A program made the position numbers and the translations under genes. Under the pieces are notes generated by a model, which searched no databases, was not told the origin of the DNA, and saw only the letters and a program-made list of their open reading frames with translations. A stretch of DNA of 64,000 bases from Streptomyces sp. DH-12 (GTDB lineage Bacteria; Actinomycetota; Actinomycetes; Streptomycetales; Streptomycetaceae), in assembly GCF_002899455.1 (NCBI RefSeq), contig NZ_PPFB01000001.1, forward strand, positions 868,001-932,000, read 5' to 3'. Below, piece by piece: positions 11,109 to 61,300 of the stretch; within the stretch, counting starts at the first letter, position 1; each line of letters starts with the position of its first letter.

Positions 11109-11115
11109 GCGGGTC

Positions 11116-11136: not shown

Positions 11137-11150
11137 CCTCTCAGGGGTTC

Positions 11151-11990: not shown

Positions 11991-12285
11991 GACTCATCAG
12001 TCGCCCCGCGGAGGTCCGGCGCAGCTCCGCGACACCGGTGCGGCGGCACGATTTCACCTGGTCGGCGCAGCATACGGCGGAGTTCCGCGGGGACCGCACG
12101 TCCGGCCGGGGGACGCTCCGACGGCCTCGCGGCCGTGACGGAACAGCGGTCCCGTCGGTTCGGGCGGGGCACGGACGGCCCGAAGGTGATCGTGGCCGGG
12201 GGGCGGCTCCGACTCGTCACTGCGCGCGGCGGCGTACGCCTCGGACCTGGCGCGGCGTCAGGGCGCGCTGCCCGCCCTCGCGTAC

Positions 12286-37260: not shown

Positions 37261-37683
37261 TCAGGCCGTGGCGACGGCCTGGGGGCTGCGCTCCTGGTCC
37301 GACCCGGGCACCGGCTCGGACGGGTCGGCGCCGAGGGCGACGACACGGTTGTCGGCGTCCACGTGGACGACCCGCGGTTCGAGCGCCCGCGCCTCGGCGT
37401 CGGTCACCTGGGCGTAACTGATGATGATCACGAGGTCGCCCGGGTGCACGAGGTGGGCGGCGGCTCCGTTGATGCCGACCACACCGGACCCGCGCTCCCC
37501 CTCGATGACGTACGTCTCGAGCCGGGCGCCGTTGGTGACGTCGACGATGTGCACGAGCTCACCGGGCAGCAGATCGGCGGCGTCGAGCAGATCCGCGTCG
37601 ATCGTCACGGATCCCACGTAGTGCAGGTCGGCCTGGGTGACGGTGGCGCGGTGGATCTTGGACTTGAACATGGTGCGCAGCAT
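37261..37683 (-). CDS. panD: Aspartate 1-decarboxylase (pyruvoyl-dependent)
   Basis: 140 residues. It makes beta-alanine from aspartate for pantothenate/CoA synthesis. The proenzyme self-cleaves between Gly and Ser in YVGSVTID (residues 24-25) to form the pyruvoyl cofactor. Conserved features include the [20 protein letters not shown] start, the tyrosine-containing [18 protein letters not shown], and [20 protein letters not shown] 37683 is preceded by GGAG. A longer C-terminal tail is normal in actinobacteria. It is solitary here, without panB/panC. Confidence 0.96.
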
Positions 37684-38308: not shown

Positions 38309-39205
38309 GCAGTTTCGTTTGGATCAGTCGGTCGTTGGTCTGGGTGTGCCGTTGACTGATGCGCAGTGGGCGCGGATCGAGCCGTTGCTCCCGGACCGGA
38401 CGCCGAAGCGAGGTGGCCGCTGGCGGGACCATCGTGAGGTGATCGACGCGATCGCCTACAAGTTCCAGACCGGTACCCAGTGGGTGCACCTGCCGGAGAA
38501 GTACGGCAACTGGCGGGGCGTGTACAACCGGCTGCGGATGTGGGCCGCCGACGGCACGTGGGAGCGGGTGTTCACCGCCCTGGTGGCCCAGGCCGACGCT
38601 GACGAGGACCTGAGCTGGGCTGTGTCGGTGGACTCCACGATCGTGCGGGCCCACCAGCACGCGGCCGGGGCCCGCAAAAAGGGGCCCCGGCCGACGAGCC
38701 GCAGGACCACGCCATCGGCCGCTCCCGCGGCGGACTGACCACGAAGATCCACCTTGCCGCCGACGGCCGGTGCCGGCCCCTGGCCTTCCACCTCACCGCC
38801 GGTCAGGCCGGTGACGCACCCGCCTTCACCGAGGTGATGGACCGCCTGCGCGTTCCCCGACAGCGCGGTCGTCCGCGCACCAGACCGGACATGGTCCTGG
38901 CCGACAAGGCCTACTCCTCCCGCGAGATCCGTGACCATCTGCGCAGACGCGGCATCCGGGCGGTGATCCCGGAACGGGCCGACCAGCAGGCCAACCGGAA
39001 GCGGCGCGGACAGGCCGGCGGCAGACCGCCGGCCTTCGACCCGGAGGCGTACAAGCAGCGCAACACCGTCGAGCGGTGCATCAACCGCCTGAAGCAGTGG
39101 CGCGGTATCGCCACCCGCTACGAGAAGACCGCGACCATCTACCTGGCCGGACTCCACATCGCGGGCATCTTCCTCTGGTCCGCCCGATGATCCAAACGAA
39201 ACCGC
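38309..39205 (+). mobile_element. Complete IS5-family insertion sequence (897 bp) with CTAG target duplication
   Basis: Ends are GCAGTTTCGTTTGGATCA (38309-38326) and TGATCCAAACGAAACCGC (39188-39205), inverted repeats with a single mismatch. Both are flanked by CTAG (38305-38308 and 39206-39209), the expected 4-bp target duplication. It carries one transposase in two overlapping frames. Preserved ends and duplication indicate recent insertion. Confidence 0.92.
38346..39190 (+). CDS. IS5-family transposase expressed by -1 ribosomal frameshift
   Basis: The first frame (start GTG 38346, stop at 38738) encodes the N-terminal HTH and the first DDE residue (VPLTDAQWARIEPLLP... SVDSTIVRAHQHAAGARKKG). 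The second frame, open to 39190, starts in register with APADEPQDHAIGRSRGGLTT and carries the second Asp (MVLADKAYSS) and the final Glu (NTVERCINRLKQWRGIATRYEKT). Joining them needs a -1 shift at CGC-AAA-AAG-GGG (38673-38684), an A5G4 slippery run typical of programmed frameshifting in this IS group. The fused product is about 280 residues, full family length. Its stop TGA overlaps the right inverted repeat. A point deletion instead of programmed shift is the alternative. Confidence 0.88.
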
Positions 39206-39758: not shown

Positions 39759-40628
39759 TCATGTTCGGAAAGCGGAAAGCATCTCAGCGGTGACGCCGAC
39801 AACTCGCCCATCTTGGAGTTCGGCACAGTCTCGGGAGATAGGTCGAAATCGTGGAGGCACCCCCCTGGGCAGGCCGGTGGTGTCGGGGGTGTACATGATC
39901 GTGGCGTCGTCCTCCGGCCGGATCTCCACCTCGGGAGGCCCCGCCCACGGGTCGGGCTCGGGAAAGTCCGCGTACCGCTCGGCCCCGACGACCGCGCTCT
40001 CCTCCGCGTCGTGGAAGACGACGAAGCGCGCCCCGGCCCTCACGCCCCAGGCCGCGACCCTCGGCAGCCGCTCCCCGTCGACCAGCAGCAACCGCGGTGC
40101 GCAGTCGTCGAGGGCACAGCGGAACTCCGCCTCGGTGCACCGGGCGTCGAGCGGTACGGCGACGAGTCCGGCGAGCTGCGCCGCCCAGAACGCGATCTGC
40201 CACTCGGGGTGTTGGCGCATGGACACGACGGACCGGCCACCGGGCCGGAGCCCGTACGTCTCGGTGAACCGGCGGGCGAGCGCGGACGCGGCGGCGAAGA
40301 ACTCCCCGTAGGAGCAGGCGCGTCCATCGGAGATCAGGAACGGCTGCTCCCCGAACGCCCAGGTCGTCTCCACGAACTCGCGGAGCATGCGGGGCTCGTT
40401 CGCGTAGACGAGGACCCCGCGCTCGTCCCGCACGACGGCGAAGGGAGCACCGGGCGCGGTCAGCGATGCCTCGACGGGCTCACGGGCTGCCGTCGGGTCC
40501 GGTGCGATGGGGGCGCGGGGTGTTGGTGAGGTCGAGCCCGGTGGCGGTGCCGGGTGGGGGGACGGTGCCGGACGCAAGACTCCGGTCCGTGGGACGGCCG
40601 GGCGCCGGTGAACGGCTGGGGTCGGCAT
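39759..40628 (-). pseudogene. Truncated acyl-CoA synthetase (AMP-binding, N-terminal part only)
   Basis: The leftward frame matches the N-terminal third of class I acyl-CoA synthetases: APGAPFAVVRDERGVLVYAN, GEQPFLISDGRACSYGEFFA, then SVVSMRQHPEWQIAFWAAQL. It ends at the AMP-binding P-loop, DDATIMYTPDTTGLPRG, where the normal YTSGTTGxPKG has lost Ser, Gly and Lys. About 30 unrelated residues then lead to a stop. The adenylation core and C-terminal domain are absent, so it cannot be an active ligase. The break lies next to the mobile-DNA scar. Confidence 0.8.
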
Positions 40629-41344: not shown

Positions 41345-42142
41345 TCACATGACGAGGAGCCCCGACTCCATGGCCCGGACGACCGCCAGAGTCCGGTTCG
41401 GGCAGTTGAGCTTGGCCAGAATGATGCCGACCGTGCGCTTGACCCCGTGTTCGGAGACACTCAGCGATCGGGCGACCTGCCGGTTGCTGAGCCCCTCGGC
41501 GATCAGGCGCAGCACCTGATGTTCACGTGCCGTCAGGGATATCGTCGACGCGCGCTTCGAGGTGCTTCCGTCCCCGACCTGTTCGGACGCTGTCACGGAC
41601 CGTCGGGCCAGGGTCGCCGACACATGGAAGCGCCCGGCCTGCACATCGACGATCGCCACACGCAGGGACTCGGGGCAGAGATCCGCCCAGTCCAGGAAGC
41701 CGTTCGCGTGATCGGCCCAGGACTGCTCGACCACGTCCGCCGAGTCCACCAGGATCAGTACGGGCGTGTTCTGCCTGCGCAGCCTTTCGGAGATCTCATC
41801 AGGTACGGACTCCAGGGCAGTACTGTCCGAGATGACCAGCCAGCCGTTGCAGAAGGACGAGAGATCTTCGGCATTCGTCACGGATCGAACGGCCAACTGG
41901 ATGTCGAGCGAACCAAGCATTCCCTCGACACTGTATCGGCGGATGTCGTCTTCGATGATCAACGCTATAGCGGTGCGCGACCAGGGTCGTCCGGTGTGCA
42001 GGGAAGCTCGTCCGTCACGTATGTCAGGCACCACATCATCTATCCGAACGCTGCAGTTCTCGTATTTTCTGCCACTCGATATCGGTTGCCAAAGTAACCC
42101 GTTCTTCACGCTGCCCATGTCAACGATTCCCCCGTTACCCAT
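41345..42142 (-). CDS. LuxR-type regulator with degenerate receiver domain and TTA codon
   Basis: 265 residues. The C-terminal LuxR/NarL helix-turn-helix (about 200-260: LTAREHQVLRLIAEGLSNRQ...LSVSEHGVKRTVGIILAKLN) is complete. The N-terminal half looks like a response-regulator receiver (AIALIIEDDIRRYSVEGMLG; WLVISDST; PVLILVDSAD), but the conserved Lys region reads NGFLDWADL, so normal phosphorylation control is doubtful. Codon 16 is TTA (plus-strand TAA at 42095-42097), the rare leucine codon read by bldA tRNA; this layout resembles S. coelicolor RedZ, an atypical regulator with TTA. The start is ATG 42142 with GGGGGAAG upstream; ATG 42118 is possible but would drop the TTA region by 8 codons only. 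It is likely the pathway-specific activator. Confidence 0.85.
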   Translation of the reverse strand: MGNGGIVDMGSVKNGLLWQPISSGRKYENCSVRIDDVVPDIRDGRASLHTGRPWSRTAIALIIEDDIRRYSVEGMLGSLDIQLAVRSVTNAEDLSSFCNGWLVISDSTALESVPDEISERLRRQNTPVLILVDSADVVEQSWADHANGFLDWADLCPESLRVAIVDVQAGRFHVSATLARRSVTASEQVGDGSTSKRASTISLTAREHQVLRLIAEGLSNRQVARSLSVSEHGVKRTVGIILAKLNCPNRTLAVVRAMESGLLVM

Positions 42143-42720: not shown

Positions 42721-44793
42721 TCAGGCGGGCTGGACGGTAATGGTGCAGAGGCGCTTGGTCGCGCGGGTCAGGGCCACGTACAGGTCCCTCTCCCCTCCGG
42801 GGCGGGCCGTGATGATCTCCTCGGGGTCCACGACGACGACCCCGTCGAATTCGAGGCCGCGTGCTTCGGACGCGGGCACGATGCGTGCGTGGTGAGCGAT
42901 GCCCTGGGCCGTCAGTTCGCTCACCCTGTTGTCCGCGCAGATCACGCCCAGGAGCTCGCCCGGATGCGTGGTGCTCTGGGCGCGGAGTTCCTGGACGGCG
43001 GCGGCCACCAACCCGTCCGGGGTGGTGGTCACGGTGCGAGGGCTCTCACCGCTCCGCAGTGACCGTGTGGGCTTCTGGTCGGGGGCGATCCGCGTGAGCA
43101 GGTCCCGGACGCTCTCCAGGATCTCCTGCGTGGTGCGGTAGCTGACGGTCAGGTTGTGGAGCTTGAACCGAGGTCCGACGTGAGGGCTCAGCGCTTCCTT
43201 CCAGTCGCATGCGGTCGCGGCCGGGCCCGCCTGGGCGAAGTCCCCCACCAGCGTCATCGCCCTCGCCGGGCAACGGCGGACGATCATCCGCCACTGCATG
43301 GCGGTCAGTTCCTGGGCCTCGTCGACGACGACGTGCCCGTACGTCCGCTCGGGGGGGCCGTCGACCAGGCTCGCCGCCTCGTCCAGCAAGGGCACATCCG
43401 CATCGGTCCACGGGTCGTCCGGGCCGCGCAGCAGAAGGGACCGCTCCTGCGCGGTCAGGCGGGGCAGGTACTCGGCGAGAGCGTCGGCATCCGTCAGGAG
43501 CGCCTTCACGAGGTCACCCGGTACCAGCCGTGGCCACAGCGTCTCGACCGCCCGGTCGACGCCCGCGTCGTCGAGGAGATCGTCCCGGATGGCGTCCAGG
43601 TCCAGTTCGTGGACCGGACCGGGGTCGGCCGCACCTTCGACGCGGCGCTGGGCGACGCCCGTGAACCGGTCGAGGTTGATGCCCGTCATCCTCTCGGCAT
43701 CGGCGTCGATCTGTTCGAGCACCTCGCTCATGTCCCGTTGCATCGCGTCGGTGACGGCGTCGACCAGGAGCTCCTTGAACACCTGGCGTGCGGGGTTGTG
43801 CCCCGATACGGCTCGGACGGCGGCCTCACGTGCCATGGCGACCTCCTCGCCGGAGAGGTGGACCCGTTCTTGTCCGACCCGCACGGTGAAATCGCCGGCA
43901 GGGGCCTGGTGGACGCGCAGCAGACCGGCCAGCGCATCGGCGAGGCCGGAGCCGCCCTTGAGACGTGCCCTGTCGAACGGGTCCACCACGTCCGTGGAGA
44001 CCCCGGCCAGTTCCTGGCAGGTCGCCAGGACGACATCGTTCTCGCCCAGCGAGGGGAGAACCTGGGAGATGTAGTCGAGGAACCGGGCGTTCGGCCCGAC
44101 CACGAGGACACCCTCCTCGGCGGCGCGCGGGAACGCGTACAGGACGTAGGCCGCCCGGTGCAGGGCGACCACCGTCTTTCCGGTGCCGGGGCCGCCCTGG
44201 ACCACGGTCACCCCGCGGTGGGCGGAGCGGACGATCTCGTCCTGCTCGGCCTGGAGCGTCGCGACGGCCGCCTGCATCATGCCCGTACGCCGTGCCGACA
44301 GAGCCTCGGTCAGCGGACCGTCCCCCACGACGTCGTCGTCGGTGGGGGCGGTCCCGTCCAGGATCTCGTCGCTCACCGAGATGACCGTGCGCTCCTCCAG
44401 ACGCAGGTGCCGGCGCCGCCGCAGGTCCATCGGGTGGACCGGTGTCGCCTCGTAGAAAGGACGTGCCGCGTTCGCACGCCAGTCCACGAGCAGAGGCAGG
44501 TCGTCCTCCTCCGTCTGCAGTCCGATGCGCCCGATGCGCAGGGCCGTGCCGTCCGTCCAGTCGATGCGCCCGAAGACCAGCCCCTTCTCGGCACCCTCCA
44601 ACCGGCCGATCTCCTTGGCCAGCCGCTCGGCGGCGATCTCTCTCTCGTATGCCTCAACCGCACTTTCCGCCTTGGCCTTCAGCACGCTCGTCCGGCTCTC
44701 GCGGGCCTCGGAAAGCCGCTCGGTGAGCAACGCGTACAAGGAGGAGACGTAATCCCGCTCCGCTTCCACCGCACGCGCAGCGGGATCATTCAT
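42721..44793 (-). CDS. helD: HelD-type UvrD/PcrA-like RNA polymerase recycling ATPase
   Basis: 690 residues. HelD proteins insert a coiled coil into the RNA polymerase secondary channel, pry it open with ATP and free stalled or drug-bound enzyme. The N-terminal 60 residues are a coiled coil (AVEAERDYVSSLYALLTERL...). Helicase motifs follow: Walker A QGGPGTGKTVVALHRA, DEAQELT (motif II), VGDFAQAGP (III), SYRTTQEIL (IV), SEARGLEFDGVVVVDPE (V) and LYVALTRATKRL (VI). The length and insertion pattern fit the actinobacterial class, as in HelR, which protects Streptomyces from rifamycins. ATG 44793 is the family start; ATG 44832 is possible. It lies between the regulator and the exporter of a PKS cluster, which suggests a self-resistance role. 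Confidence 0.88.
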   Translation of the reverse strand: MNDPAARAVEAERDYVSSLYALLTERLSEARESRTSVLKAKAESAVEAYEREIAAERLAKEIGRLEGAEKGLVFGRIDWTDGTALRIGRIGLQTEEDDLPLLVDWRANAARPFYEATPVHPMDLRRRRHLRLEERTVISVSDEILDGTAPTDDDVVGDGPLTEALSARRTGMMQAAVATLQAEQDEIVRSAHRGVTVVQGGPGTGKTVVALHRAAYVLYAFPRAAEEGVLVVGPNARFLDYISQVLPSLGENDVVLATCQELAGVSTDVVDPFDRARLKGGSGLADALAGLLRVHQAPAGDFTVRVGQERVHLSGEEVAMAREAAVRAVSGHNPARQVFKELLVDAVTDAMQRDMSEVLEQIDADAERMTGINLDRFTGVAQRRVEGAADPGPVHELDLDAIRDDLLDDAGVDRAVETLWPRLVPGDLVKALLTDADALAEYLPRLTAQERSLLLRGPDDPWTDADVPLLDEAASLVDGPPERTYGHVVVDEAQELTAMQWRMIVRRCPARAMTLVGDFAQAGPAATACDWKEALSPHVGPRFKLHNLTVSYRTTQEILESVRDLLTRIAPDQKPTRSLRSGESPRTVTTTPDGLVAAAVQELRAQSTTHPGELLGVICADNRVSELTAQGIAHHARIVPASEARGLEFDGVVVVDPEEIITARPGGERDLYVALTRATKRLCTITVQPA

Positions 44794-45018
44794 GGTCGAC
44801 AACCGGGGGCTCCTTCGGGTCGGGCGAGACATACGGGGTGAGATCTTCCGCCGGGAATCGGACCGCTCCGCCGGGAGACGGACCGGTGGACTCGCACCCC
44901 GCTCGCCGCAGTGCAGCCCGGCGGCGGGTGACCGACAGCCCCTTCACGGCGGCGGCCGTCCGAGTTCCGTCCGCGTTCCCGCCCGTTCCGGTCCGGGTTC
45001 CCGTCCGCGTCCACCCCG

Positions 45019-46596
45019 TCAGGCGGTGGAATGAGGCTCGGCACTGCGGGCCCCTTCGTACTCCGGTTCCGGTGCCGGGTTCTTCTTCTTTCCGGCAGCG
45101 GGCAGGGCGATCATCAGCACGGCCACCGCGACGAGCGTGATGAGCATGATCCAGACCGCACCGACGTGCATGGCGTGGATGAACGCCTGATCGGCGGCCC
45201 GTGCGAGAGCGGGCTGATCGATCGTGGTGGCGACATGGCGGGCCTGTTCCGCGGAGACCCGGGCGCTGTCCCGCACCGACTCCGGGACAGCTCCTAGCGA
45301 GGGTTCGATCGCGTCTCGGTACGCGATCGACATGATCGTGCCGCCCACCGCGATCCCGATCACGCTGCCGACCTGCCGCGCCGTGTTGGTGACGGCCGAC
45401 CCGGCACCGGACCGCTCCAGCGGCAGGCTGCTGAGCAGTGCGCCGGTCACCGGGGCCATCACCATGCCGACGGAGAGGCCCTGCACCAGCAGCAGGAGAG
45501 CGATCCAGACGAGCGGGGTGCGCAGATCCAGGAATCCGACCGCGCCCATGGTAAGCGCCGCCACCGTGAGCGCCGGCACGGCGACGGGGCGCAGTGACCA
45601 TCGGCCGACGAGACGTGCGCCCAGGGGCGCGCCCACGACGGCGCCGACGGCCGTCGGAACATTCGCCAAACCGGCCTTCATCGGTGAGTAGCCCAGCGCG
45701 CCCTGCATGTAGAACGCGTTGTAGAAGGTGATGGCGGCGACGGAGAAGAACAGCAACGCCATGGACGCGTTGCCACCGCCGAACATCCTCTGGGCGAGCA
45801 GCCGGGGATCGAAGCTCGGTGCCTCGGTCCGCAATTCGACGAGCACGAAGACGACCAGCAGGACGATCCCGGCCGCGGTCGGCGCCCAGACGTCCCAACG
45901 GCTCCAGTCGTCCACCTGCCCCGCACGGATCACGCCGTAGGTCAGTGCCGCGAGTCCGGTGATGGACAGCAGGATCCCGGCCGGGTCCATCGGCCGCACG
46001 GAGGGGCTGCGGAAATTGGGGACCAGAAAGACGATCCCGGCCAGTGCCACCACGATGATCGGGACGTTGACGAGAAAGACCGAACCCCACCAGAAATGTC
46101 CGAGCAGAAGTCCCGCCAGCACCGGCCCCGCCGCCATTCCGACACCGGTGGATGTCGAGGAAATGGCGATCGCGGTTGCCCGCCCGGCGCCGGTGAAGGT
46201 CCACAACAGAATGGCGAAGTTGGCCGGCATGATCAGTGCGGCGCCGACTCCCATCGCGGCACGTGCGGCGATCAACTGGCCCGCATCGCCCGCGTACGCC
46301 GCCCAGATCGAGGCCCCGGCGAAGATCACCAGGCCGACGGCGAGCACATTCCGATGGCCGAAGCTGTCGCCCATCGCACCGGCGGTGAACATCAGGGTCG
46401 CGAAGACCAGGGTGTAGGCGCCGGTGGCCCATTGCAGCTCGGCCGGGCTGGCGCCCAGCCCCTGGACCGGGTCAGCAAGGGTCTCCAGAGTGATACTGAG
46501 AACGGTGTTGTCCAGCCAGATCAGCAGCGAACACACCATGAGCACGGAGAGAATTAACCGTTGCCTGGATTTCGGCAACGTCGGAGGCGCGGCCAT
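45019..46596 (-). CDS. MFS exporter, DHA2 (14-TMS) drug:H+ antiporter, with TTA codon
   Basis: 525 residues, 14 predicted membrane segments. DHA2 signatures are motif D1 LIWLDNTVLSITLETL, motif A AGAMGDSFGHRNVL, motif C STGVGMAAGPVLAG, and an extended hydrophobic middle. It probably expels the polyketide. Codon 14 is TTA (plus-strand TAA at 46555-46557), so translation should depend on bldA tRNA, like luxR. ATG 46596 follows GAAGGTGGTC. The 226-bp gap to helD holds no gene, and the two are likely co-transcribed. A 386-bp upstream region contains three 34-bp repeats. Confidence 0.9.
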   Translation of the reverse strand: MAAPPTLPKSRQRLILSVLMVCSLLIWLDNTVLSITLETLADPVQGLGASPAELQWATGAYTLVFATLMFTAGAMGDSFGHRNVLAVGLVIFAGASIWAAYAGDAGQLIAARAAMGVGAALIMPANFAILLWTFTGAGRATAIAISSTSTGVGMAAGPVLAGLLLGHFWWGSVFLVNVPIIVVALAGIVFLVPNFRSPSVRPMDPAGILLSITGLAALTYGVIRAGQVDDWSRWDVWAPTAAGIVLLVVFVLVELRTEAPSFDPRLLAQRMFGGGNASMALLFFSVAAITFYNAFYMQGALGYSPMKAGLANVPTAVGAVVGAPLGARLVGRWSLRPVAVPALTVAALTMGAVGFLDLRTPLVWIALLLLVQGLSVGMVMAPVTGALLSSLPLERSGAGSAVTNTARQVGSVIGIAVGGTIMSIAYRDAIEPSLGAVPESVRDSARVSAEQARHVATTIDQPALARAADQAFIHAMHVGAVWIMLITLVAVAVLMIALPAAGKKKNPAPEPEYEGARSAEPHSTA

Positions 46597-46981: not shown

Positions 46982-49900
46982 TCACCGGCCGCCGAGTGAG
47001 TCCAGCCAGCGCCGCAGATGTGCGGCGGTCTCCGGCGCCCGCTCCTCGATGATCGAGAAGTGATCCGCCTCGATGTGCTCGATCGGTCCACGGTGCTGCC
47101 AGTCCGGGACAGGGTCGCTGTCTCCGAAGGTGCTCAGCGTCAGGGTGGCCCGCAGATTCAGTGTGGGTGCGGCGATCGGTTCGGCCTCGCGATCGGGATA
47201 GATGCGCACATAGCCACCCATGGCGAGCAGGCCGTGGTCGTCCACGGGGGTCAGCGAGTTGTTCCGGGACAGGATCTGCCCCAGCGCGTCGGTGAGCACG
47301 TGGCGGTTGAGTTCGATGTCGTCCGGGGAGTAGGTGTCGATCATCGCGACGCCCGCCAGCGTGCCTCCGTCGTCCTCGATCCGCCGGGCGACCGCATGGG
47401 CGATCGCGCCACCGGCCGAATAGCCGATGAGCGCCACCGGGCTTCGGCCGAGCTCCGCCGCGACGCTCGCGGCGAGGCTCTCGATCGCCGCCGTCCAGGT
47501 CGGTGGCAGGTCGTCACCCGCGCGCGTGCCGGGCAGCCGCAACGCGCTGACACGCCGCTCGCCGCCCAGTTCATGGGCGAGGCGCGCGAACTGGTGGGAG
47601 CCCGATCCCGCGAGGAACGAGGGGATGCAGACCAGTGCCGGTGCCGTGTCGCCGCGCGCCAGGAGCTGCGCGGCCGGGCGCCGGGTGGCGGCCTCCTCGG
47701 CGGAGTACAGGGGCATCAGGGCGGCGCTCGCGGTCAGCAGCGGCATCGCCCCTGCCAGCTCACCGCGGCGATGCGCCGTCGACACCAGCTCGGTGATCGT
47801 GCCGCGCACGCCGGCCGGTACCTGCTCGGCCACGCCGGTGCCGGACTCCTCGATCCGCGACCGCACCAGTTTCGCCACATCGGCGGCGGTCGGGTGGTCG
47901 AAGATCAGCGTCGACGGCAACGTCAGCTCGGTCAGTTGTGCCAGCCGGTTCCGGAACTCGACGGCACCGAGGGAGTCGAACCCCAGCTCGGTGAACGGCG
48001 CGTCCGGGTCGATCGCGTCACCGGAGAGGTGGCCGAGGACCGCCGCCGCGACGTGGCGTACCTCGCGCAGGGCCGCGGCGTCGAGGTCGGCGTCGGGCAG
48101 GGCGGCCATCTGCCGCGCCAGGCTGACACCGGCGCTCCTGGTGACCCGGGGGACCCGGATCATGCCGCGCAGCACCGCGGGCAGTGTGCCGCCGCGCGCC
48201 AGGGCGGTGAGCGCCACCGTGTCCAGCAGCGCCGTCATCGGTGTCGCCCGGTCGGTCTCCAGCGCATGGTCGAACAGCGCCATCCCGGAATCCGGGTCGA
48301 TCGGGACCAGGCCCAGCCTGGCCCGGATCCGGCGGGCGTACTGCTCGGCACCGTCCCCGCTGAGCGCCCCTGCCATGCCGACGGTCCACAGCCCCCAGGC
48401 CAGGGAGTGCGCGGGCAGGCCCGCGCTGCGCCGCAGGCGTGCCAGGGCGTCCAGGGCGCTGTTCGCGGCGGCGTAGTTGCCCTGTCCTTGTCCGCCGAGC
48501 AGCGGGGCCGCGGACGAGAAGAGCACGAACGCCGACAGATCCAGATCGCGCGTCAGCTCGTGCAGATGCAATGCCGCGTCGACCTTTGGCGCCAGCACCC
48601 GTGTCGTCCGCTCGGCGGTCAGGGTGTCGAGTGTGCCGTCGTCCAGGACGCCCGCCGCGTGGATGACGGCGGTCAGCGGCGCGTCGGTGCCGATGCCGGC
48701 CAACAGGTCCTGGACCGCGGTGCGCTCGGTGACGTCGCACGCCACGACCTGGACGTGGGCGCCGTGGCCGGTCAGCTCGGCGGTCAGTTCGGCGGCGCCG
48801 TCCGCGGCGGCGCCGCGTCGCGACACCAGCAGCAGCCGCCGTGCGCCGTGCGCCGTGACCAGATGCCGGGCGACGATCGCACCGATGCCGCCGGTGCCGC
48901 CGGTGATGAGCACGGTGCCCCGGTCGAACGACGGCGGCGCGCCCGCTCCGGTGGCGGGCAGCGAGCGCAGTCGCGGTGCCAGGAGCCGTCCCCCGCGCAC
49001 GGCCAGGTGCGGTTCGTCCTGGGCCACGGCGTCGGCGAGCGAGGTGAGCGGCAGGGCGTCGCCGTCGTGGTCGATGAGCAGGAAACGGCCCGGATGCTCG
49101 GCCTGTGCGCTGCGCACGAGGCCCGCCACGGCGGCCCCGGCCAGATCGGGCTCCTCACCGGGCAGCCCAGCGGCCGTGCGGGTCACGATCACGAGCCGGC
49201 CGGGGTGAGCGGCGCCTGTCCAGCCCTGCAACAGGGCGAGCGTCGTCAGGACGCCGGTGTGGACGTCCGCCGCGCCCGCCCCTGTCCTGCGGGGCGCCTG
49301 CCATACCACCGTGTCGGGAGCGTCCCCCAGCCCGGCGAGTCCGGCCAGATCGGAACAGCTCGTCGCGGGCTCCGGAGCCTCGACGGCCGCCGGGTCACCC
49401 AGCACGACGACGCACCCCGCGTCCGCCTCGGGGGCGGCAGGCACGGCGACCCATTCCAGGTCGAACAGCGGTGCCGCGCCGCGCAGCTCGGCCAGCGCCT
49501 GCGGCTCGATCGGGCGGGACCGCACCGATTTCACGCTCAGCACGAGGGCACCGGTCGCGTCGGCCGCGTCCACGCGCAGGGTGTCCGGTGCGATGCGGGC
49601 GATACGGACGCGCAGGGCGCCCACGCCGGACTGTGCCACCTGGACGCCGTCGAAGGCGAAGGGGAGGGGCAGCCGGCCGTCGGGCCCGCCCTCGACGAGA
49701 GGTCCGACCGCCGCGTGGAACACCGCGTCCAGCAGTGCCGGGTGCAGCCCGAAGTCAGTGGCGCGCGCCGCGCTGTCGGTGTCGAGGGCCAGGTCGGCGA
49801 AGACTTCCTCCCCACGGGTCCACGCGGCGCGAACACCCTGGAACACCGGGCCGTACCCGAAGCCGAGGTCGCTGAGCGCGCGGTACACCCGCTCCCCGTC

Positions 49901-52900
49901 GACCGGCTCGCCCGCGGCCGGAGGCCACGCGCGGGACCAGTCCGGTGCCGGGACCGGTGCGGCGGGCGTGAGCAGGCCATGGGCGTGCGGCACCCAGGCG
50001 TCGGCGACGCGGGCGTGGACGGCCACGGTCCGGTGCCCGGCCGCGTCGGGTTCGCCCACGGCGAGCTGGAGGTCCGCGGTGCCGTCGGCCGGGAGGACCA
50101 GCGGCGCCGCGAGGACCAATTCAGCCAGCCGTGGCACGCCGAGCCGGGCGCCGGCCGCCAGGGCCAGTTCCACGAATCCGGTCCCTGGCATCATGACCGT
50201 GCCCAGGACCGTGTGGTCGGCGAGCCAGGGGTGCGTGCGCAGCGAGAGCCTGCCGGTGAACAGCCATTCGTCCTTGCCGGCGAGCTGCGTCTGGGCGTGC
50301 AGCAGCGGATGGCCGGCGGAGTCGGCGCCGGCGAGCGGCGCTGCGGCCTCCGCGGGCAGCAGCCAGAAGCGTTCGTGCTGGAAGGGATAGGCGGGCAGTG
50401 TGATCCGTGCCTGCGGTCGCGCTCCGAAGTAGTCGGACCACCGCACCGGCCGGCCCGCGCAGTGCGCGGTGGCCAGCGCGGCGACCAGCTGTCCGGGTTC
50501 GTCGACGGTGCGGCGGGACGCCGCGACCACCGAGGCGCGCGCCGCGACGTCGGCCGCCGCGGTGGCGCGGGTCATGGCCGTCAGCACCGCGTCCGGGCCG
50601 AGCTCGACGAACAGGCCCACGCCCGAGTCGAGCAGGGACCGCACCGCCGGGGCGAAGCGCACAGCCTCGCGCACCTGCCGTACCCAGTACTCGGGCGTGC
50701 CCACCGCGGCGCCGGCGAACGCGCCGGTGACCGTGGAGCACAGAGGGATGCGCGGCTCCCGGTACGTCAGGCCGGCGGCGATCTCCGCGAACTCAGCCAG
50801 CATCGGGTCCATCAGAGCGGAGTGGAACGCGTGGCTCACCCGCAGCCTGCTGGTCCTGACGCCTTCGGCCACGAGCCTCGACTCGACCGCCGAGACCGCG
50901 TCGGCGTCTCCGGAGAGGACCACCGCGTCGGGGGCGTTCACCGCGGCCAGGGAGACCGCGCCGGCTGCCGGACCGGCGTCGGCCGCCGCCAGCAGCTCCA
51001 GGGCCCGCCCCTCCGGCACCGCGGCGGCCAGCATGCTCCCGCCTGCCGGCAGCGCCCCCATCAAGCGGCCTCGGGCCGCGACGAGGGTGCACGCGTCCGG
51101 CAACGACCACACACCGGCCACGTAGGCCGCGGCCAGCTCGCCGATCGAGTGCCCAGCGACCACGTCCGGCGTCACGCCCAGCGACTCGACGAGGCGGTAC
51201 ATCGCCACCTCGAACGCGAACAGCGCGGGCTGGGTGTACTCGGTGCGGTCGAGCAGCGTCTCGTCGGCCGCGCCGAACATCACGTCCCGCAGCGCGTGCC
51301 CCAGGTGGGCGTCGAACTCCGCGCACACCTCGTCGAGCGCCGCCGCGAAAGCGGGGAACGCCCGGTACAGCCCGGCGCCCATCCCGGTTCGCTGGGCGCC
51401 CTGGCCGGTGAACAGGAACGCGGTCGTCCCGGTCCGGCCGGCGTCGTCGGCGATGCCCGATCCCGGCTCGTCGGCCGCCAAGCGCGCCAGGGCGGCGAGC
51501 AGTGTCTCCCTGTCCTGGCCCACGGCTGCGGCGCGCCGGTCGAACCGCGCGCGGTGCAGTGCCAGCGTCACCGCGACATCGGTGAGGTCGAGCTCCGGAC
51601 GTTCACTCAGCGTGTCGTGCAGACGGCGCGCCTGGCACCGCAGCGCGGCAGGTGTCCGCGCGGACAACAGCAGCGGCACGGCCGGCGGGCGCGGTGGATC
51701 GACCGGCCGGGGCGGGGCCAGGGGCGCCTCCTCCAGGATCACGTGCGCGTTGGTCCCGCTGATCCCGAACGACGACACCCCCGCCCGGCGCGGGCGACCG
51801 CCGGCGGGCCACGGCTCGGCCTCGGTCAGGATCCGTACCGCGTCCGCCGGCCACTCCACGTGCGGTGACGGCTCGTCGACGTGCAGGGTGGGCGGCAGCG
51901 TCTCGTGCCGCAGCGCCTGCACCATCTTGATCACACCGCCGACACCTGCAGCGGCCTGCGCGTGCCCGATGTTCGACTTCAGCGACCCGATCCGCAGCGG
52001 CTCGGCGCGGTCCTGGCCGTAGGCGTTGATCAGCGCCTGTGCCTCGATCGGGTCACCCAGCGTGGTGCCGGTGCCGTGCGCCTCCACGGCGTCCACCTCG
52101 GCCGCCGACACCCCTGCCCTGGCCAGTGCCTGGGCGATCACCCGCTCCTGGGAGGGTCCGTTCGGTGCGGTCAGGCCGTTGCTCGCGCCGTCCTGGTTGA
52201 CCGCGCTGCCGCGGATCACGGCCAGCACGGGGCGCCCGTTGCGCTGCGCGTCGGACAACCGCTCCAGGGCGAGCACGCCGACGCCCTCGGCCCACGCGAC
52301 ACCGTCCGCGGCGCTCGAGAACGCCTTGCAGCGCCCGTCCGGTGACAGGGCCCGCTGCCGGGAGAACTCCTGGAACAGCATCGGGGTGGACATGACCGTC
52401 ACCCCGCTGGCCAGGACCAACGACGTCTCCCCGGCGCACAGGGCCTGCACCGCCAGATGCAGGGCCACCAGCGACGACGAGCACGCCGTGTCCACCGTCA
52501 CCGCGGGTCCTTCCAGACCGAGGGCGTAGGACACCCGGCCGGAGACGACGCTGCCGCCCGATCCGGTCGCCAGATAGCCTTCCGCGGCACCGTCGGCGGC
52601 CTCGCGCGCCGTGTAGCCGTAGTCCTGGTACATGACGCCGGCGTACACCCCGGTGTCGCTGCCGCGCAGGGAGGCCGGGTCGATACCGGCGTCCTCGAGC
52701 GCTTCCCAGGACGCTTCGAGCAGCAGCCGCTGCTGCGGGTCCATCGCCGCTGCCTCACGGGGGCCGATGCCGAAGAAGGCGGCATCAAAATCACCCGCGG
52801 CGCGCAGGAATCCGCCTTCCCGTGTGTACATCTTGCCGGGCGTGCCGGGGACGGTGTCGTACAGGTGGTCGATGTCCCAGCCGCGGTCATCGGGCATCGG

Positions 52901-55900
52901 GCCGATCGCGTCCACGCGCCCGGCGATCAGGTCCCAGAGCTGGTCGGCGTTCTCCACGCCGCCGGGGTACCGGCAGCTCATGCCGACGATCGCGATCGGC
53001 TCGTCGGCCCTGGCCCTGGCCGTGGCGGGGCGCGACCGTGCCGGCGCCGCGCTGTCAACCCTGGTACGCAGGAAGTCCGCGACGGCGGCGGTGGTCGGAT
53101 AGTCGAACACCAGCGTGGACGGGAGCGGGACGCCGGTGGCGGCGGTCACCTTGTTGCGGAACTCGACTCCGCCGAGCGAGTCGAAGCCCAGTTCCGTGAA
53201 GGGCGTTTCGGGGTTGACGGCTTCGGCCGACTCGTGGCCGAGTACCCCGGCGGCGATCGCGCGGACCTCGTCGCGGATCAGCGCCTCCCACCGATCGGCG
53301 GGGGCGTCCAGCAACCGCCGACGCAACGGGCTGTCGGCGGTCCGGCCGCGCGACGGCACGTGGATCAGACCGCGCAGCACGGCGGGCAGCGTGCCGAGCC
53401 GGCCCAGCGCGGTGAGGGCCTGCGTGTCGAGCAGCGCGGTCATCAGCATCGGTTCGCCGGTGGTCAGCGCGTCGTCGAGCATCCGCATGCCGGTGTCCGG
53501 CTCGATCGGGGACAGGCCCAGACGCGTGCGGATCTGACGGGCCAGGTGTTCGGCGCCCGCCTCGTTCAGCGCCTCGGCCATGCCGCGCTTCCACAGCCCC
53601 CAGGCCAGCGAGTGTGCGGGCAGACCGGCACTGCGGCGCAGCTGGGCAAGGGCGTCCATCGCCGCGTTCGCCGCCGCGTAGTTGCCCTGGCCCTGCCCGC
53701 CGAGCAGCGGCCCGGCGGAGGAGAACAGCACGAACGCCGCCAGGTCCATGTCGCGGGTGAGCTCGTGCAGGTGCCAGGCGGCATCGGCCTTCGGGGCGAG
53801 CACCCGGTCCACCTGCTCCGCGGTCAGGGTCTCGACGGTGCCGTCGTCGACCACGCCTGCGGTGTGCACGACAGCGGTCACCGGTTCGTGCACGGGTACG
53901 GATTCCAGCAGCGCCGCCACATCGGAGCGCTTGCTGACATCGCAGGCGGCGACGCGTACGCGGGCGCCCAGCGCGGTCAGTTCGGTGACCAGCTCCGCAA
54001 CCCCCGGCGCGGCGGAGCCCCGGCGCGAGACGAGCAGCAGCCGGCGCACCCCGTGCCGGGTGACCAAGTGGCGTGCGGTGACGGCGCCCAGTCCGCCGGC
54101 GCCGCCGGTGATCAGGACCGTGCCGTCACCGAAGGGCTCGCCGGCCGGCGCGGCGGTGGCCGCACGGACCAGCCTCGGTGCCACCGTGGCGCCGACACGG
54201 ATCGCGAGCTGGGGTTCGTCCATGGCGGCTGCGGCGGCGATCCGCCGGTGCGGGTCCGCGAGGTCGTCGTCGAGGTCCACGCTCACGATGCGCCCCGGAT
54301 GTTCCGACTGCGCGCTGCGCACCAGGCCACGGACGGCCGCCGCCGCGAGATCCGGCGTCTCACCGGGCAGACCCGCCCCGTTGCGGGTCAGCACGATCAG
54401 CGTCGAGTCGGCGCAGCCCGGTTCGGCGAGCCAGTCACGCAGCACCGTGAGGGCGCTGTGCACGGCGGTGCGGACGGTCGCCGGGACGTCGGCGCCGTCC
54501 TCCGCCGCCGTTCCGGGCGACCAGACGACGGCCGCGCCGGTGGGGTTCCCGCCTGCCACGAACGCCGTGACATCCTCGAACGTCTCGGCGCAGCCCTCGA
54601 CGGGCCGCCCCAGGGCGACCAGGGGCCGGTCCGGCACCTCGGGCGCCGTCACCGGCGTCCAGGCGATCGTGTGGAGCGGGGCGCGGGCCCCGGCGAGAGC
54701 GCGCGCGTCCGCAGGGCGGGCGAGCACGGCGTCGATCGACAGCACGGCGGCGCCGGTGGCGTCGCAGGCGTCGATGCGCACTTTTTCGGAACCCGACCGG
54801 ATGATGCGGGCGCGGACTGCGCTCGCGCCGCGCCGGAAGACACGGACGCCGCCGAAGGAGAACGGAAGCGGCAGCCTGCCGTCGGGGAGGTCGTCGGCGA
54901 GTACGTCGATGGCGGCGTGGAAGATCGCGTCCAGCAGCGCCGGATGGACCCCGAAGGCCGCCGCCCGGCCCGCCGTCGTCCCGCCCAGGGACACCTCGGC
55001 GAAGACGTCGTCACCGCTGGTCCAGGCGGCGCGCACGCCCTGGAAGCTCGGGCCGTAGCCGAATCCCAGGTCGGCGAGCCGGTCGTACAGCCGCGTTCCG
55101 TCGATCGGCTCGCCGTCGGCCGGCGGCCAGTCGGGGTCGGTCCAGGCCGGTGTCACACCGTCGGCGGGAGCAAGGACGCCGGTGGCGTGCAGCGTCCAGT
55201 CCGGCCCGCCCGGGTGGGACGGCGCGATGCCGGTGGCGGCACGCGAGTGGACCGACAGGCGCCGTCGGCCGGTGTGGTCGAGCTCGGTCACCGACACCTG
55301 TACGTCCACGGCGGCGGTGCCGTCGAACACCAGCGGTGCCTCCAGGACGAGTTCGTCCACGACGGGCAGGTCCAGGCGGCTGCCCGCCGCCGACGCGAGC
55401 TCCACGAACCCGGTGCCGGGCAGCAGCCTCGAACCGAACGCCGTGTGGTCGGCGGTCCACGGCTGGTCGGTGGCGGAGAGCCTGCCGCTGAAGAGCCATG
55501 CGTCACGCCCGGCGAGCGGCGCGGCGACGCGCAGCATCGGATGGTCGAGCGTGGACAGGCCGGCGCGGCCCAGGTCACCGAGCGCGCCGTCCTCGGGCTG
55601 CACCCAGTAGCGGCGGTGCTGGAAGGCGTAGGCCGGCAGGTCGAGGTGGGTGACCGGCCCTGCCGGTGACAGCGGCGACCAGTCGACGGTGACGCCCGAG
55701 CAATGGGCTGCGCCGAGCAACCGAAGGAACTGGCCGGCCTCGTCGACGCCCCGCCGTGACGCCGCCTCGACCAGCGAGCGCTGCGCCACCTCGTCGTTCA
55801 GCGTGTGGCGGGTCAGCGCCGCCAGCACCGCGTCCGGACCCACCTCGACGAACCGGCGCACCCCGGCGTCGGCGAGCGACCGCACCGCCGGGGCGAACCG

Positions 55901-58357
55901 CACGGCCTCGCGCACCTGCCGCACCCAGTACTGCGGCGTCAGCAGCTCGGGACCGGCCGGCGCACCGGACACCGTGGAGCACACGTCCATGCGGGGCTCC
56001 CGGTACGCAACCGACCCGGCGACCTCCTCGTACGCGGCGAGCATCGGCTCCATCAGCGCCGAGTGGAAGGCGTGACTGACCGTCAGCCGGTTCGTCCTGA
56101 CGCCCTCGTCCTTCAGCCGCTCCTCCAGGGCGGCGATCGCCGCCGTCCCGCCCGAGAACACCACGGCCGTGGGCCCGTTCACGGCCGCCAGCGAGACCGG
56201 CCCGGTCGCGAGCAGGTGCAGCGCCCGCTCCTCCGGCACCGCGGCGGCGAGCATCGCTCCGTCGGCCGGCAGCGCGCCCATCAGCCGGCCGCGGGCGGCG
56301 ACGAGCCGACACGCGTCGGCCCGCGACCACACCCCGGCCACGTAGGCCGCGGCCAGCTCACCGATCGAGTGCCCGACCACCACGTCCGGGGTCACGCCGA
56401 ACGACTCCAGGAGGCGGTACATCGCCACCTCGAACGCGAACAGCGCGGGCTGCGTGTACTCCGTCCGGTCGAGCGGGGCGCTGTGCCCGGTGTCGCCGGC
56501 CCGGCCGGACATGACCTCGCGCAGCGACACCCCCAGCAGGGCGTCGAACTCCGCGCAGATCTCGTCGAGGGCGGCGGCGAACACGGGGAACGCGGCGGCC
56601 AGCCCTTCGCCCATGCCGACGCGTTGCGCGCCCTGGCCGGTGAACAGGAAGGCCGTTCCGCCGGTGGTGGCGGCACCCGACACGAGCTGCGGGGACTCCG
56701 CGCCCTCGGCCAGGGCCGTGAGGCCGGCGAGCAGAGCGGCCCGGTCGGCGCCGAGCACCGCGCCGCGCCGCGCCAGCTGAGCGCGCCCGGTGAGCAGGGC
56801 GGCGGCGACATCAGCGTCATCCGCCTCGGGGTGCGCGGCGAGCCAGTCCCGCAGCCGGCCCGCCTGCGCCTGGAGCGCGGCTTCCGACTTGGCGGACAGC
56901 AGCCACGGCGCCGGCAGCGCCGGACGGCCCGGCTCCGGCCGCTGTGCGTCGTCCGCCGGTCCGGTGGCACGGGCGCGTGGCGCCTCTTCGAGGATCACGT
57001 GAGCGTTGGTCCCGCTGATCCCGAAGGACGACACACCCGCCCGGCGCGGACGGCCGAGCTCCGGCCACCGCTGAGTCCGCGTCAGCAGCCTCACGGTGCC
57101 CGCCGACCAGTCGACCTCGGGGGTCGGCTCGTCCACGTGCAACGTCGGGGGCATGACCCCCTCGCGCATCGCCATGACCATCTTGATCACGCCCGCGACA
57201 CCCGCCGCGGCCTGCGTGTGACCGATGTTCGACTTCACGGAACCCAGCCACAGCGGGTTGTCGTCCCCCCGGGCCTGGCCGTACGCGGACATGAGCGCCC
57301 GCGCCTCGATCGGATCGCCGAGCCGTGTTCCCGTACCGTGCGCCTCCACGGCGTCCACCTCGGACGCCGACAGCCGCGCGTCGGCCAGCGCGGCCCGCAC
57401 GACCCGCTCCTGCGACGGCCCGTTCGGTGCGGTCAGCTGGCTGCTCGCACCGTCCTGGTTCACCGCCGAGCCCCGCATCACCGCCAGCACCCGGTGCCCG
57501 GCGCGCTCCGCGTCCGACAGCTTCTCCAGCACCAGCACGCCCACGCCCTCGGCCCAGCCCGTGCCGTCCGCCGACGACGAGAAGGCCCTGCACCGCCCGT
57601 CCGGCGCCAGCCCGCGCTGCCGGGAGAACTCCACGAACGTGCCAGGTGTCGCCATCACGGTCACACCGCCGGCGAGCGCCATCGAGCACTCACCCTGGCG
57701 CAGCGCCTGCGCGGCGAGGTGCAGCGCGACGAGCGAGGAGGAACACGCGGTGTCGACCGTCACCGCCGGCGCCTCCAGGCCGAAGGTGTAGGCCAGCCGG
57801 CCCGACGCGACGCTGCCCGCGCTCCCGGTCAGCATGTAGCCCTCGAAGCCCTCGGGGGTGTGGGGGCGGGAGCCGTAATCGTCGTACATGACGCCCATGT
57901 ACACCCCGGTACGGGTGCCCCTCAGCGTCGTCGGGGCGATGCCCGCGTGCTCGAAAGCCTCCCAGCTGGTCTCCAGCAGCAACCGCTGCTGGGGGTCCAT
58001 CGCCGCCGCCTCGCGGGGGCTGATGCCGAAGAACTCGGCGTCGAACCGGTCCGCGTCGTACAGGAAGCCGCCTTCGCGGGCGTACGAGGTGCCGAGGTGG
58101 TCGGGGTCCGGGTGGTACAGGTTCTCCAGGTCCCAGCCACGGCCGTCCGGGAAGGGACCGACCGCGTCACGTCCGGCGCTCAGCAGCTCCCACAGGTCCT
58201 CCGGGGAGGCGACACCGCCCGGCAGCCGGCAGGCCATGCCCACGATCGCGATCGGCTCGTGTGCGCGCTCCTCCAGATCCCGCACCCGCTGCCGGCTCTC
58301 CCGCAGATCGACCGTCGCCCGCTTGAGATAGTCACGAAGTTTCTGCTCGTTGTCCAT
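46982..58357 (-). CDS. Type I polyketide synthase, last two modules plus thioesterase
   Basis: 3791 residues. An N-terminal docking helix (1-33, [20 protein letters not shown]) is followed by two full modules. Module A: KS (34-460, Cys205), AT (570-880, Ser664 in GHSIGE), DH (945-1215, His971 in [10 protein letters not shown]), KR (1400-1590, Tyr1560), ACP (Ser1727 in GFDSL). Module B: KS (Cys1959), AT (Ser2404), DH (His2715 in [10 protein letters not shown]), KR (Tyr3295), ACP (Ser3462). The C-terminal thioesterase (3560-3791) has Ser3647 in GYSAGG. Both ATs have HAFH, predicting malonyl-CoA. Both KRs carry the Asp of the B-type LDD motif (GVVDDG, GVLDDG). Each module therefore adds C2 and leaves an E double bond. 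The TE ends assembly by hydrolysis or macrocyclisation. The start is 2 nt after the upstream PKS stop, so the two are coupled. Confidence 0.95.
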
Positions 58358-58359
58358 GT

Positions 58360-61300
58360 CTACCTGCCGAGTTCGTTGTCAAGTGCTGCGAAGAGTTCGT
58401 CGTCGGTCGCCAGGTCGATGTCGGCGCCGTCGGGGCCGCCGTCCACCGTCCGGAGCAGACCGCGCAGTCGCGTGGCGTACGTTCCCGCCGGGCCGTCGCC
58501 GTCCGAAGGTCCGGCGGCCGAGAGTGCGGCCTCGAGGGCGTCCAGAGCCGCCTGGACCGGGTCCGCCGCTTCGCCGGCCAGCTCGCCCCGCAGGTGTTCG
58601 GCGAGAGCCTGAACGGTCGGGTGGTCGAAGACGAGCGTGCTGGGCAACTGCATTCCGGTGACGGTGTTCAGCCGGTTGCGCAGTTCGACCACGGTCAGGG
58701 AGTCGAAGCCCAGGTCCAGCAGTCCGCGCTGGACGTCGATCGTCCGCGGGGCCGGGTGGGCCAGCACGATACCGACCTGCTCCCTGACGAGGTCGAGCAG
58801 CCGCTGCCGCTGCTCCTCCGAGCCCAGGCCCGAGAGCCGTTGCGCGAGGGGGATCTCCGCCGGGGCGGAGGCTCGCCGGCCGGTGTGGGGCCCGGTGCGC
58901 ACCAGGCCCCGGTACAGCTCGGGCAGGGCGTCCCCGAGGCTCCGCAGGGCCGCGAGGTCGAGGGCCACCGGTGCGAGCACCGGTGGCGTCGCCGCCGCGC
59001 CGGCCGCCGGTGGCGCCTCGGCTCCGGCCAGGGCCGTGTCGAGGGCGGTGAGCGCCCGGCCGGCCGACATCGGCAAGATCCCGTTGCGTGCGAGCCTGGC
59101 CCGGTCGGCACGGTCGAGGTCGTTCGCCATGCCGTCCTGCCACATTCCCCAGGCGAGGGACACGGCGGGCAGGCCCTCGGCGCGCCGGTGTCCGGCGAGC
59201 GCGTCCAGGAAGGTGTTGCCGGCGGCGTAGCCGGCCTGTCCGGCGTTGCCCACCAGACCGGCGACGGACGAGAAGAGGACGAAGTGCGTCAGCTCCAGCC
59301 CGGCGGTCAGCTCGTGCAGGTTCCAGGCGGCTGCCACCTTCGGCCGTAGGACCCGGGAGAGGCGCTCCCGGGTCGTGGCCTCCAGCATGGCGTCCTCGAC
59401 GACTCCGGCCGCGTGCACGACCGCGGTGAGCGGGTGCTCGTCCGGAACCGAAGCGAGCAGCGCGGCCAGCGCGTCGCGGTCGGCCGCGTCGCATGCCGCG
59501 ACGCGTACGTCCGCGCCGAGCGCCGCCAGTTCGGCGATCAAATTCCGCGCCCCGCCTCGCCGGCTGGTGAGCAGCAGGCGACGGGCGCCGTGGGCGGTCA
59601 CCAGGTGCCGGGCGACCTGGGCCCCGAGGGCGCCGGTGCCCCCGGTGACCAGCACCGTGTGCTCCGGGTCGAACGCGCCACCGGTGTCCGGGGCCGGGTT
59701 CGGGACCTTGGCGAGCCGGGTCACGTAGGCCAGCCCTCCGCGCAGTTCGATCTGCGGCCGAGGGTCGGCCAGGGCCGCCGCGAGCAGGTCGCCGCCGACC
59801 GGGCGGCCGTCCGTGATCACGTGCTGGAAACGTCCCGGATGTTCCGACTCCGCGGTCCGCATCAGCCCGGAGAGCGCGCTGTGCGCCAGTTCCCCGGTGC
59901 TGACCACGGCGAGCCGAGCTCCGGCCGCCGGGTCGGTGGCGAGCCACTGCCGCAGGACCGTCAGCGTCTCCTCCGTGACCCGGCCGGTCTCCTGCGGGGT
60001 GGCCGGGCGTACCGGAAGGACGACCACGTCGGGTACGGGCGCGCCGTCCGCCGTCGAGGCCGCCAGGCCGGCGAGGTCGGCGTGGTGCCGGGCGGCGAGT
60101 CCGAGGGTGGTCCCGCCGAGGACCGCGAGACTCATGTCACCACCGGTGGCAAGTTCCACAGCGGCCCGCTCCACCGCGTACACGAGCGGCTCCGAGGGGC
60201 GGGTCAGCGAGGTCCCCGCCGGCAGGGCCCGCACGGCGAGCGAGGCGACGGTGGCGACCGGCGCGCCCGTCCCGTCGGCGACGGCGACCGTGACCGTTCC
60301 GTCCGGGCGGGGTGACAGCTTGACCCGCAGGGTTCCGGTCGCGGTCCCGGTCAGCTGGACGCCGCCGAAGGAGAAGGGCAGCCGTAGTGCGGCAGGCTCC
60401 TCCAGGAGCAGTGCGTGCAGCGCGGCGTCGAACAGGGCCGGGTGCAGGGCGAATCCCTCATCGAGGTCGACGGGCAGCTGTACCTCGGCGTAGAGGTCTT
60501 CGCCCGAGCGCCATGCCGCCCGGAGGCCCTGGAAGGCGGGTCCGTAGCCGTAGCCCCGGTCGGCGAGGCGGTCGTACAGGTTCTCGACCGGCTGTAGTTC
60601 GGCGCCGACCGGGGGCCACGGGACGAGGTCGGGGCCGGGGGTGCCGGGGACGGCGGCCACCACGGTTCCGGTGGCGTGCCGGTCCCAGGCGTCTCCTTCC
60701 TGGTCCCCGCGCGAGTGGACGGCGACGGGCCTGCGGCCGTCTCCGTCAGGGCCGCCGACGGTGATCTGGAGCTGGAGCGCGCCCTCGTCGGGGAGGACCA
60801 GGGGCGCCTGGAGGGCGAGTTCCTCCAGCCGCTCGCAGCCGAGTGCGGCGCCCGCGTGGAGCGCGAGCTCGACCAGGGCCGTGCCGGGGACCAGCAGGGT
60901 GCCGGCGACGGCGTGGTCGGCGAACCAGGGGTGGCTGCGGGCCGATATCCGGCCGGTGAACAGGACACCGTCGGAGTCGGCGAGCGGGACCGCGGCCCCG
61001 AGCAGCGGGTGCCGTGCGGCGTCCAGCCCGGCCGAGGTGACGTCGCCGCCGGGCCCTTCCATGAGCCAGTAGCGCCGGCGCTGGAAGGGATAGGTCGGCA
61101 GCTCCGCTGCCGGTCCCGTGTCCTCGTCGAACAGGGCGCGCCAGTCCACCGGCACCCCCCGCACGTGTGCGTGGGCCAGGGCGGTGACGGCTGTGTGCGG
61201 CTCGGGGCGCCCGCCGCGCATCACCGGGACCAGGAGCGATCCCGCGTCGAGGAAGTCTTGCCCCATGGCGCTGAGCACACCGTCCGGGCCGAGCTCCAGG

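Follow-up and report, generated by a model that had tools for sequence, protein, structure and literature searches.

HelD proteins recycle stalled RNA polymerase (RNAP), and in actinobacteria the HelR proteins shield the enzyme from rifamycins (PMC10719064). For Mycobacterium smegmatis HelD, the same source describes that E484/D485 at the tip of the PCh loop, together with Q490, disturb the rifampicin pocket, and that alanine in place of the tip residues compromises resistance (PMC10719064). The class I HelD of Bacillus subtilis has no such loop and is described as shielding RNAP from rifampicin via its N-terminal domain (PMC12802891). Small HelDs are also listed for Streptomyces coelicolor, namely SCO4195 and SCO4316, which are 680-681 aa long (PMC8655204). 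Streptomyces calvus is named as the producer of annimycin, and the C5N triplet (ams, hemA, all) is on record for this and further C5N compounds (PMC4525017). In a range of actinobacterial genera, sporulation is inhibited by 4-Z-annimycin (PMC12451607), and the annimycins are termed antibiotics in a passage that gives no target (PMC4071589). In the open-licence literature we found no report of a molecular target of annimycin, and no paper that connects HelD with a biosynthetic cluster or annimycin with RNAP.

The window analysed here is a chromosomal stretch of 64,000 nucleotides (C1:868001-932000) from Streptomyces sp. DH-12, and its right-hand part carries a PKS cluster on the minus strand. 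Domain matches identified the downstream part of PKS_A (58360-64000, -), consisting of an ACP and one KS-AT-DH-KR-ACP module, and PKS_B (46982-58357, -), consisting of two KS-AT-DH-KR-ACP modules and a thioesterase (TE). PKS_A runs beyond the end of the window to about L028:13.0 kb, where a KSQ loading module and two more modules are found; thus, the full PKS in the window and L028 comprises a KSQ loading module, five KS-AT-DH-KR-ACP modules and a TE. A C5N triplet of an acyl-CoA ligase, an ALAS-type gene and a second AMP-binding gene follows beyond PKS_A (L028:13063-17522). On the other side of the PKS lies an MFS exporter (45019-46557, -; Pfam MFS_1), whose ORF is readable to 47091 and whose homology with relatives starts from 46557; its top NCBIfam matches are DHA2-type efflux models, under their cut-offs. 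Then come helD (42721-44793, -) and a LuxR-type regulator with a GerE domain match (41345-42142, -), which adjoins helD in clusters of the layout called type A below. The gene map therefore agrees with the preliminary description, in which helD was placed between a regulator and an exporter on the strand of the PKS: LuxR is on its 3' side and the MFS exporter and PKS are on its 5' side.

One of the closest described systems is the annimycin cluster of Streptomyces calvus. PKS_B is 86% identical over 2573 aa to the Streptomyces calvus PKS (L051), the TE is 87% identical, the C5N and KSQ regions are 84-91% identical, and the order PKS-MFS-helD-LuxR is the same as in the window; the LuxR is just 72% identical. 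The C5N triplet and KSQ region were also found in all eight other annimycin-PKS genomes, with 79-98% identity. Because of the C5N triplet, the PKS architecture and the identity to Streptomyces calvus, the product of the window cluster is, as read from the sequence, most likely annimycin-like. GC content is 0.68-0.70 in five 2-kb bins between 38 and 48 kb, compared with 0.70-0.78 in the other bins. An IS4/5-type transposase is present in two ORFs at 38319-39190 (+) and 39759-40628 (-), beside a short AMP-binding fragment (289 aa), and the gene at 37261-37683 is one which we take to be panD-like. Neither the AMP-binding fragment nor this gene was found in other annimycin loci, and the cluster border therefore seems to be near 41 kb.

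ORF, homology and domain matches identify the helD product as a HelD ATPase of 690 aa. The ORF is open over 42721-44832 (-), and homology with relatives begins at the ATG at 44793. This start codon, assigned from sequence comparison, is provisional; an in-frame ATG also lies at 44832, and six of seven annotated plasmid orthologues begin 42-45 nt inside the matched stretch and one at its first codon. Among PDB entries, M. smegmatis HelD matches best (E 1.3e-107), Pfam helicase-core domains are matched, and both Walker A (GGPGTGKT, aa 200-207; 44173-44196, -) and the Walker B region (DEAQE, aa 491-495; 43309-43323, -) are intact in all 102 sequences of our set, which comprises the window HelD and its relatives. 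The N-terminal secondary-channel domain is present, since aa 9-145 match the N-terminal M. smegmatis HelD chain 8r6p_H (E 1.6e-26). A structure model contains helices at 4-39 and 45-71 (mean pLDDT 71, pTM 0.59); its confidence is moderate and it supports the fold assignment only, and in Foldseek its top five matches were all M. smegmatis HelD-RNAP complexes (E 3.7e-41 to 1.5e-36). These results bear out the earlier claim of a complete HelD-like ATPase. A search of the genome for another helD copy, as had been proposed, found four more strongly matching HelD-like loci, at C1:2.59, 4.19, 4.27 and 4.71 Mb. Therefore helD is the fifth HelD-like gene of this genome and not a second copy, as it had been called. 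Two further matches are weak (E 1e-6 to 1e-4) and are probably other helicases. The nearest paralogue is 39-43% identical to the window HelD over aligned segments.

The window HelD lacks the PCh loop. In M. smegmatis HelD the loop spans about 452-513, and E484/D485/Q490 align within the stretch that is missing from the window HelD. At this site (43335-43380, -), 14 residues separate aa 472 from aa 487 where the core paralogue (C1:2.59 Mb) has 92, and the loop is absent in 102/102 sequences of the set. Compared with HelR and Class II HelDs (S. venezuelae HelR, M. abscessus HelR, M. smegmatis HelD), the RecA-like ATPase core is alike and the N-terminal arm and HelD-specific middle part are common to both, but the window HelD lacks the entire loop with its rifampicin-expelling tip. 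In addition, the scan found no rifamycin-associated element (RAE) at the window helD, which unlike those genes lies inside a biosynthetic cluster, and its protein is far under the HelR and HelD cut-offs. It scores 461.7 bits against a cut-off of 1100 and 367.5 against 750 with the NCBIfam HelR models, and 414.6 against 1051 with the HelD_MYCSM model. With about 690 aa, it is near the size of the small SCO4195/SCO4316-type HelDs of S. coelicolor. Two paralogues in the genome of the window, at C1:4.19 and 4.27 Mb, likewise have no PCh loop, which shows that HelDs of the loop-less kind occur in Streptomyces already; these two are only about 34% identical to the window HelD. Outside the loop the window HelD is nearer to large Streptomyces HelDs (40-48% identity over segments) than to the small ones, and unlike the small ones its gene is accessory and lies beside a PKS or, in relatives, resistance genes. 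Protection of RNAP may not require the loop, because the loop-less class I HelD is reported to protect against rifampicin (PMC12802891).

Co-occurrence of helD with PKS clusters had been named as a check, and it was borne out. One set of 392 Streptomyces genomes was searched both for helD (E<=1e-150) and for the C-terminal ACP-TE part of the PKS. The helD clade is patchy, being present in 42/392 genomes at this threshold, and the annimycin PKS is present in 6/392 (TE part 80-100% identity). In all six, helD is on the same contig within 3 kb of the PKS, compared with helD anywhere in 36 of the 386 genomes without the annimycin PKS (hypergeometric P = 1.1e-6, which treats genomes as independent and ignores phylogeny). 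Three further annimycin-PKS genomes, one of them from another genus, came from a draw of 394 genomes across the family that overlaps in part with the first set, and all three have helD in place. Thus, helD lies within 3 kb in nine of nine genomes that were picked by their PKS and not by helD. The objection that this might be the only helD, conserved at its position in strains without the PKS, fails: four other HelDs are present, and PKS-less strains carry helD of this clade elsewhere. Starting from helD, we examined 80 named loci, nearly all from Streptomyces. The annimycin PKS end is within 10 kb in 11 of them; L057 (S. diacarni), which has C5N genes with MFS-helD-LuxR, is one more linked locus; L048 has the exporter only; and 67 have no PKS end, C5N genes or exporter. 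The linked count is a lower bound because several contigs end within 10 kb. Counted by contig, type A accounts for 14 and type B for four of the 18 distinct linked loci. We conclude that helD is almost certainly a regular member of the annimycin-type cluster.

Two observations stand beside these counts. In L048 (Streptomyces chattanoogensis, 8316-12070), the exporter (88%) and helD are in the annimycin order, and no TE or LuxR relative was found in the stretch examined; L048 is possibly a remnant of a lost annimycin cluster. Weaker TE matches (36-45%) in G038, G058, G069, G094, G167, G227, G326 and G347 were not counted as annimycin PKS. Six of these eight genomes carry helD elsewhere, which is above expectation (P = 1.1e-5, post hoc), and in none of the eight was helD found within 10 kb of the TE match; one copy in G326 is about 49 kb off. 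The resemblance between the clusters is only partial, and genomes rich in clusters may account for the excess.

The linked clusters show two layouts. Type A is PKS(TE)-MFS-helD-LuxR, and type B (L079, L080, L085, L087) is PKS(TE)-helD-TetR-another MFS. The helD of type B is of the same clade as that of the window, whereas exporter and regulator are different: the type B exporter is about 32-34% identical to that of type A, and no LuxR relative was found in the type B stretches examined. Between the layouts, helD is constant while exporter and regulator vary. In G262 the MFS-helD-LuxR block is inverted relative to the PKS, yet it is whole. Distances of HelD and PKS-TE correlate (Spearman 0.75, 17 loci) about as those of TE and exporter do (0.74, 13 loci); those of HelD and exporter correlate less (0.58). 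Mean identity over loci decreases from HelD (90%) to TE (86%), MFS (82%) and LuxR (79%). Between the window and G080, HelD (95.4%) is below TE (96.8%) and exporter (97.1%), and dN/dS of helD is 0.26, indicating purifying selection.

These patterns bear on whether helD is a mere passenger, i.e., a mobile accessory gene that has been transferred and inherited alongside the cluster but has no function connected with the product. In trees, the linked helDs fall in one clade (SH-aLRT 100), mixed with unlinked ones: 15/15 linked genes are in a clade of 70 rows in the first tree and 18/18 in a clade of 81 rows in the second. Of the 70 members, 55 are unlinked to the PKS, and the label changes between linked and unlinked ten times, a count made on a weak tree. 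Both trees are quick searches, with 52/86 and 50/82 inner branches under 80. The first omits the partial row L105, and the second omits 17 of 102 rows, picked out by hand (11 of outer clades, four other distant ones, L105 again, and L032, whose locus is that of plasmid L149 and is counted twice in the 102-sequence set). Relatives are also found on ten plasmid records, two of which are the same plasmid, with 87-93% identity; the nine plasmid helDs examined all fall in the linked clade, and no annimycin TE was found in any of the ten records. Four related linear Streptomyces plasmids (L142, L144, L145, L146) carry ABC-F-helD-TetR-MFS, where the ABC-F gene of L145 reads in two frames and is unannotated. 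This unit shares the helD clade with the window but has no annimycin TE and a different exporter and regulator. Its TetR and MFS are 88-91% identical to their counterparts in type B clusters, and its helDs group with the type B helD of L079 (97*). The same ABC-F gene (92%) is ahead of helD in L081 (S. halstedii), and both scanned ABC-F proteins exceed the NCBIfam cut-off for antibiotic-producer ABC-F ribosomal protection proteins. On one other plasmid, helD adjoins two APH-family (aminoglycoside-phosphotransferase) genes, and IS elements are beside helD in two loci. In G254, two equal-scoring copies of helD lie on opposite strands (C1:420186-422255 and 11118578-11120647), about 0.4 Mb from either chromosome end, as expected of terminal inverted repeats. 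The patchy occurrence, the plasmid and IS contexts and the variety of surroundings, with 68/80 named loci showing no annimycin linkage within the stretch examined, would suit a passenger. However, helD is retained in all nine clusters, including one in another genus and those with TE identity as low as about 80%, it is kept where exporter and regulator differ and where the block is inverted, and it is under purifying selection. The passenger explanation is thus unlikely, although transfer of the cluster as one unit could alone explain the co-inheritance.

It is also unlikely that the role of helD is regulatory or housekeeping-like, whereby HelD would recycle polymerase along PKS genes that are GC-rich and span roughly 30 kb, or tie production to development. 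In its favor, helD follows the 3' end of the PKS genes, in most cases on their strand, LuxR adjoins it in type A, and recycling of stalled RNAP is described for HelDs (PMC10719064). Against it, a KS domain was found, within the stretch examined, in just 2/75 unlinked loci scanned (L048, weak, and L074), so helD does not accompany PKS genes in general. Furthermore, some relatives adjoin drug-resistance genes, and four other HelDs are already present in the genome. A separate scan covered the 110 nearest genes of the 55 unlinked loci in the clade, with 103 farther genes as control. The gene caller was home-made and misses low-GC3 genes; it also missed the exporter and LuxR in some loci, which were recovered by tblastn. 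No Pfam family, whether linked to resistance or not, occurred in more than 5/110 of the nearest neighbours among the best 25 of 134 families. Since 55/70 clade members are unlinked, strains without the annimycin product either benefit from the gene or tolerate it, and the unlinked helDs are as well conserved as the linked ones.

A link to rifamycins was sought in the same loci. With the RAE motif in the form that we presume it to have, no RAE within three mismatches was found in the window or the annimycin loci scanned. One locus outside the annimycin clusters, L112 (6112-10071), has helD followed by a true rifampin monooxygenase (rox) gene, with an RAE-like palindrome with two mismatches between them (L112:8362). 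RAE sites in L070 and L099, with three mismatches each, look like chance. Four of the 110 neighbours of unlinked helDs were considered as rifampin monooxygenases, and this count was rejected, since only that of L112 (900 bits) passes the cut-off of 800 bits; those of L061, L064 and L094 score 372, 71 and 59 bits. In the two overlapping sets of genomes, rox is not enriched with helD (23/42 helD-positive genomes versus 90/150 Streptomyces). In the 42 genomes, no rox sharing a contig with helD was nearer to it than 10 kb, the closest being about 26 kb away; rox on another contig of a fragmented assembly cannot be placed relative to helD. The proposal of the preliminary description, that the product inhibits RNAP and HelD clears it in the fashion of HelR, is therefore not supported and very unlikely: HelR guards RNAP from rifamycins (PMC10719064), a PCh-less class I HelD protects against rifampicin (PMC12802891), helD is linked to the cluster and L112 exists, but the PCh loop is missing in 102/102 sequences, RAE and rox give the picture above, the cluster is annimycin-like with a reported effect on sporulation (PMC12451607), and no report of annimycin acting on RNAP was found in the open-licence literature.

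Producer self-protection is the reading that we prefer, and on the sequence evidence its chances are about even. Self-resistance had been proposed together with an RNAP-binding product; the cluster linkage in 9/9 genomes, the adjoining exporters and the ABC-F and APH company on plasmids fit the former, while the latter found no support. Self-protection is also favored by type B, in which four loci keep helD directly after the PKS, and by the co-divergence of HelD and TE. A protective role fits the exporters that adjoin helD and the ABC-F or APH genes that adjoin its plasmid relatives; association with resistance genes is, however, not the rule for unlinked helDs. On the other side, HelD and exporter correlate less, the window and G080 HelDs are less conserved than TE and exporter, most clade members (55/70) are unlinked, with no neighbour family in more than 5/110 proteins among those listed, and the effect reported for annimycin is on sporulation and not on transcription (PMC12451607). 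If HelD is protective, it would bind RNAP as other HelDs do, with its N-terminal arm in the secondary channel and opening of the clamp, and would free transcription complexes that are stalled directly or indirectly by the product. It would thus rescue stalled polymerase and not expel a drug from the rifamycin pocket via a PCh loop, and beside the exporter it would be a second line of defence. It is doubtful that RNAP itself is the direct target of the product. A rather improbable extension is that annimycin-type compounds block transcription and that the PCh-less HelD clade is a mobile form of target protection by a non-HelR route, shared by producers and non-producers and found with ABC-F and exporter genes on linear plasmids. 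Inhibited sporulation would perhaps be explained if the target were a developmental form of RNAP.

In summary, the association of helD with the PKS is real and meaningful, and it is stronger than is visible from the window alone. By its sequence, the window HelD is a PCh-less variant whose gene forms part of an antibiotic cluster. Since the PCh-less clade is under purifying selection, it is kept for a purpose other than loop-driven drug expulsion. The scope of HelD thereby widens beyond intrinsic rifamycin tolerance, to a gene that is built into a cluster and also occurs on resistance-bearing plasmids. A protective gene fixed in a cluster is a classical pointer to the target, and therefore the helD link makes the question of the annimycin target directly testable. 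If annimycins indeed block transcription, this HelD clade would protect RNAP by a route other than that of HelR.
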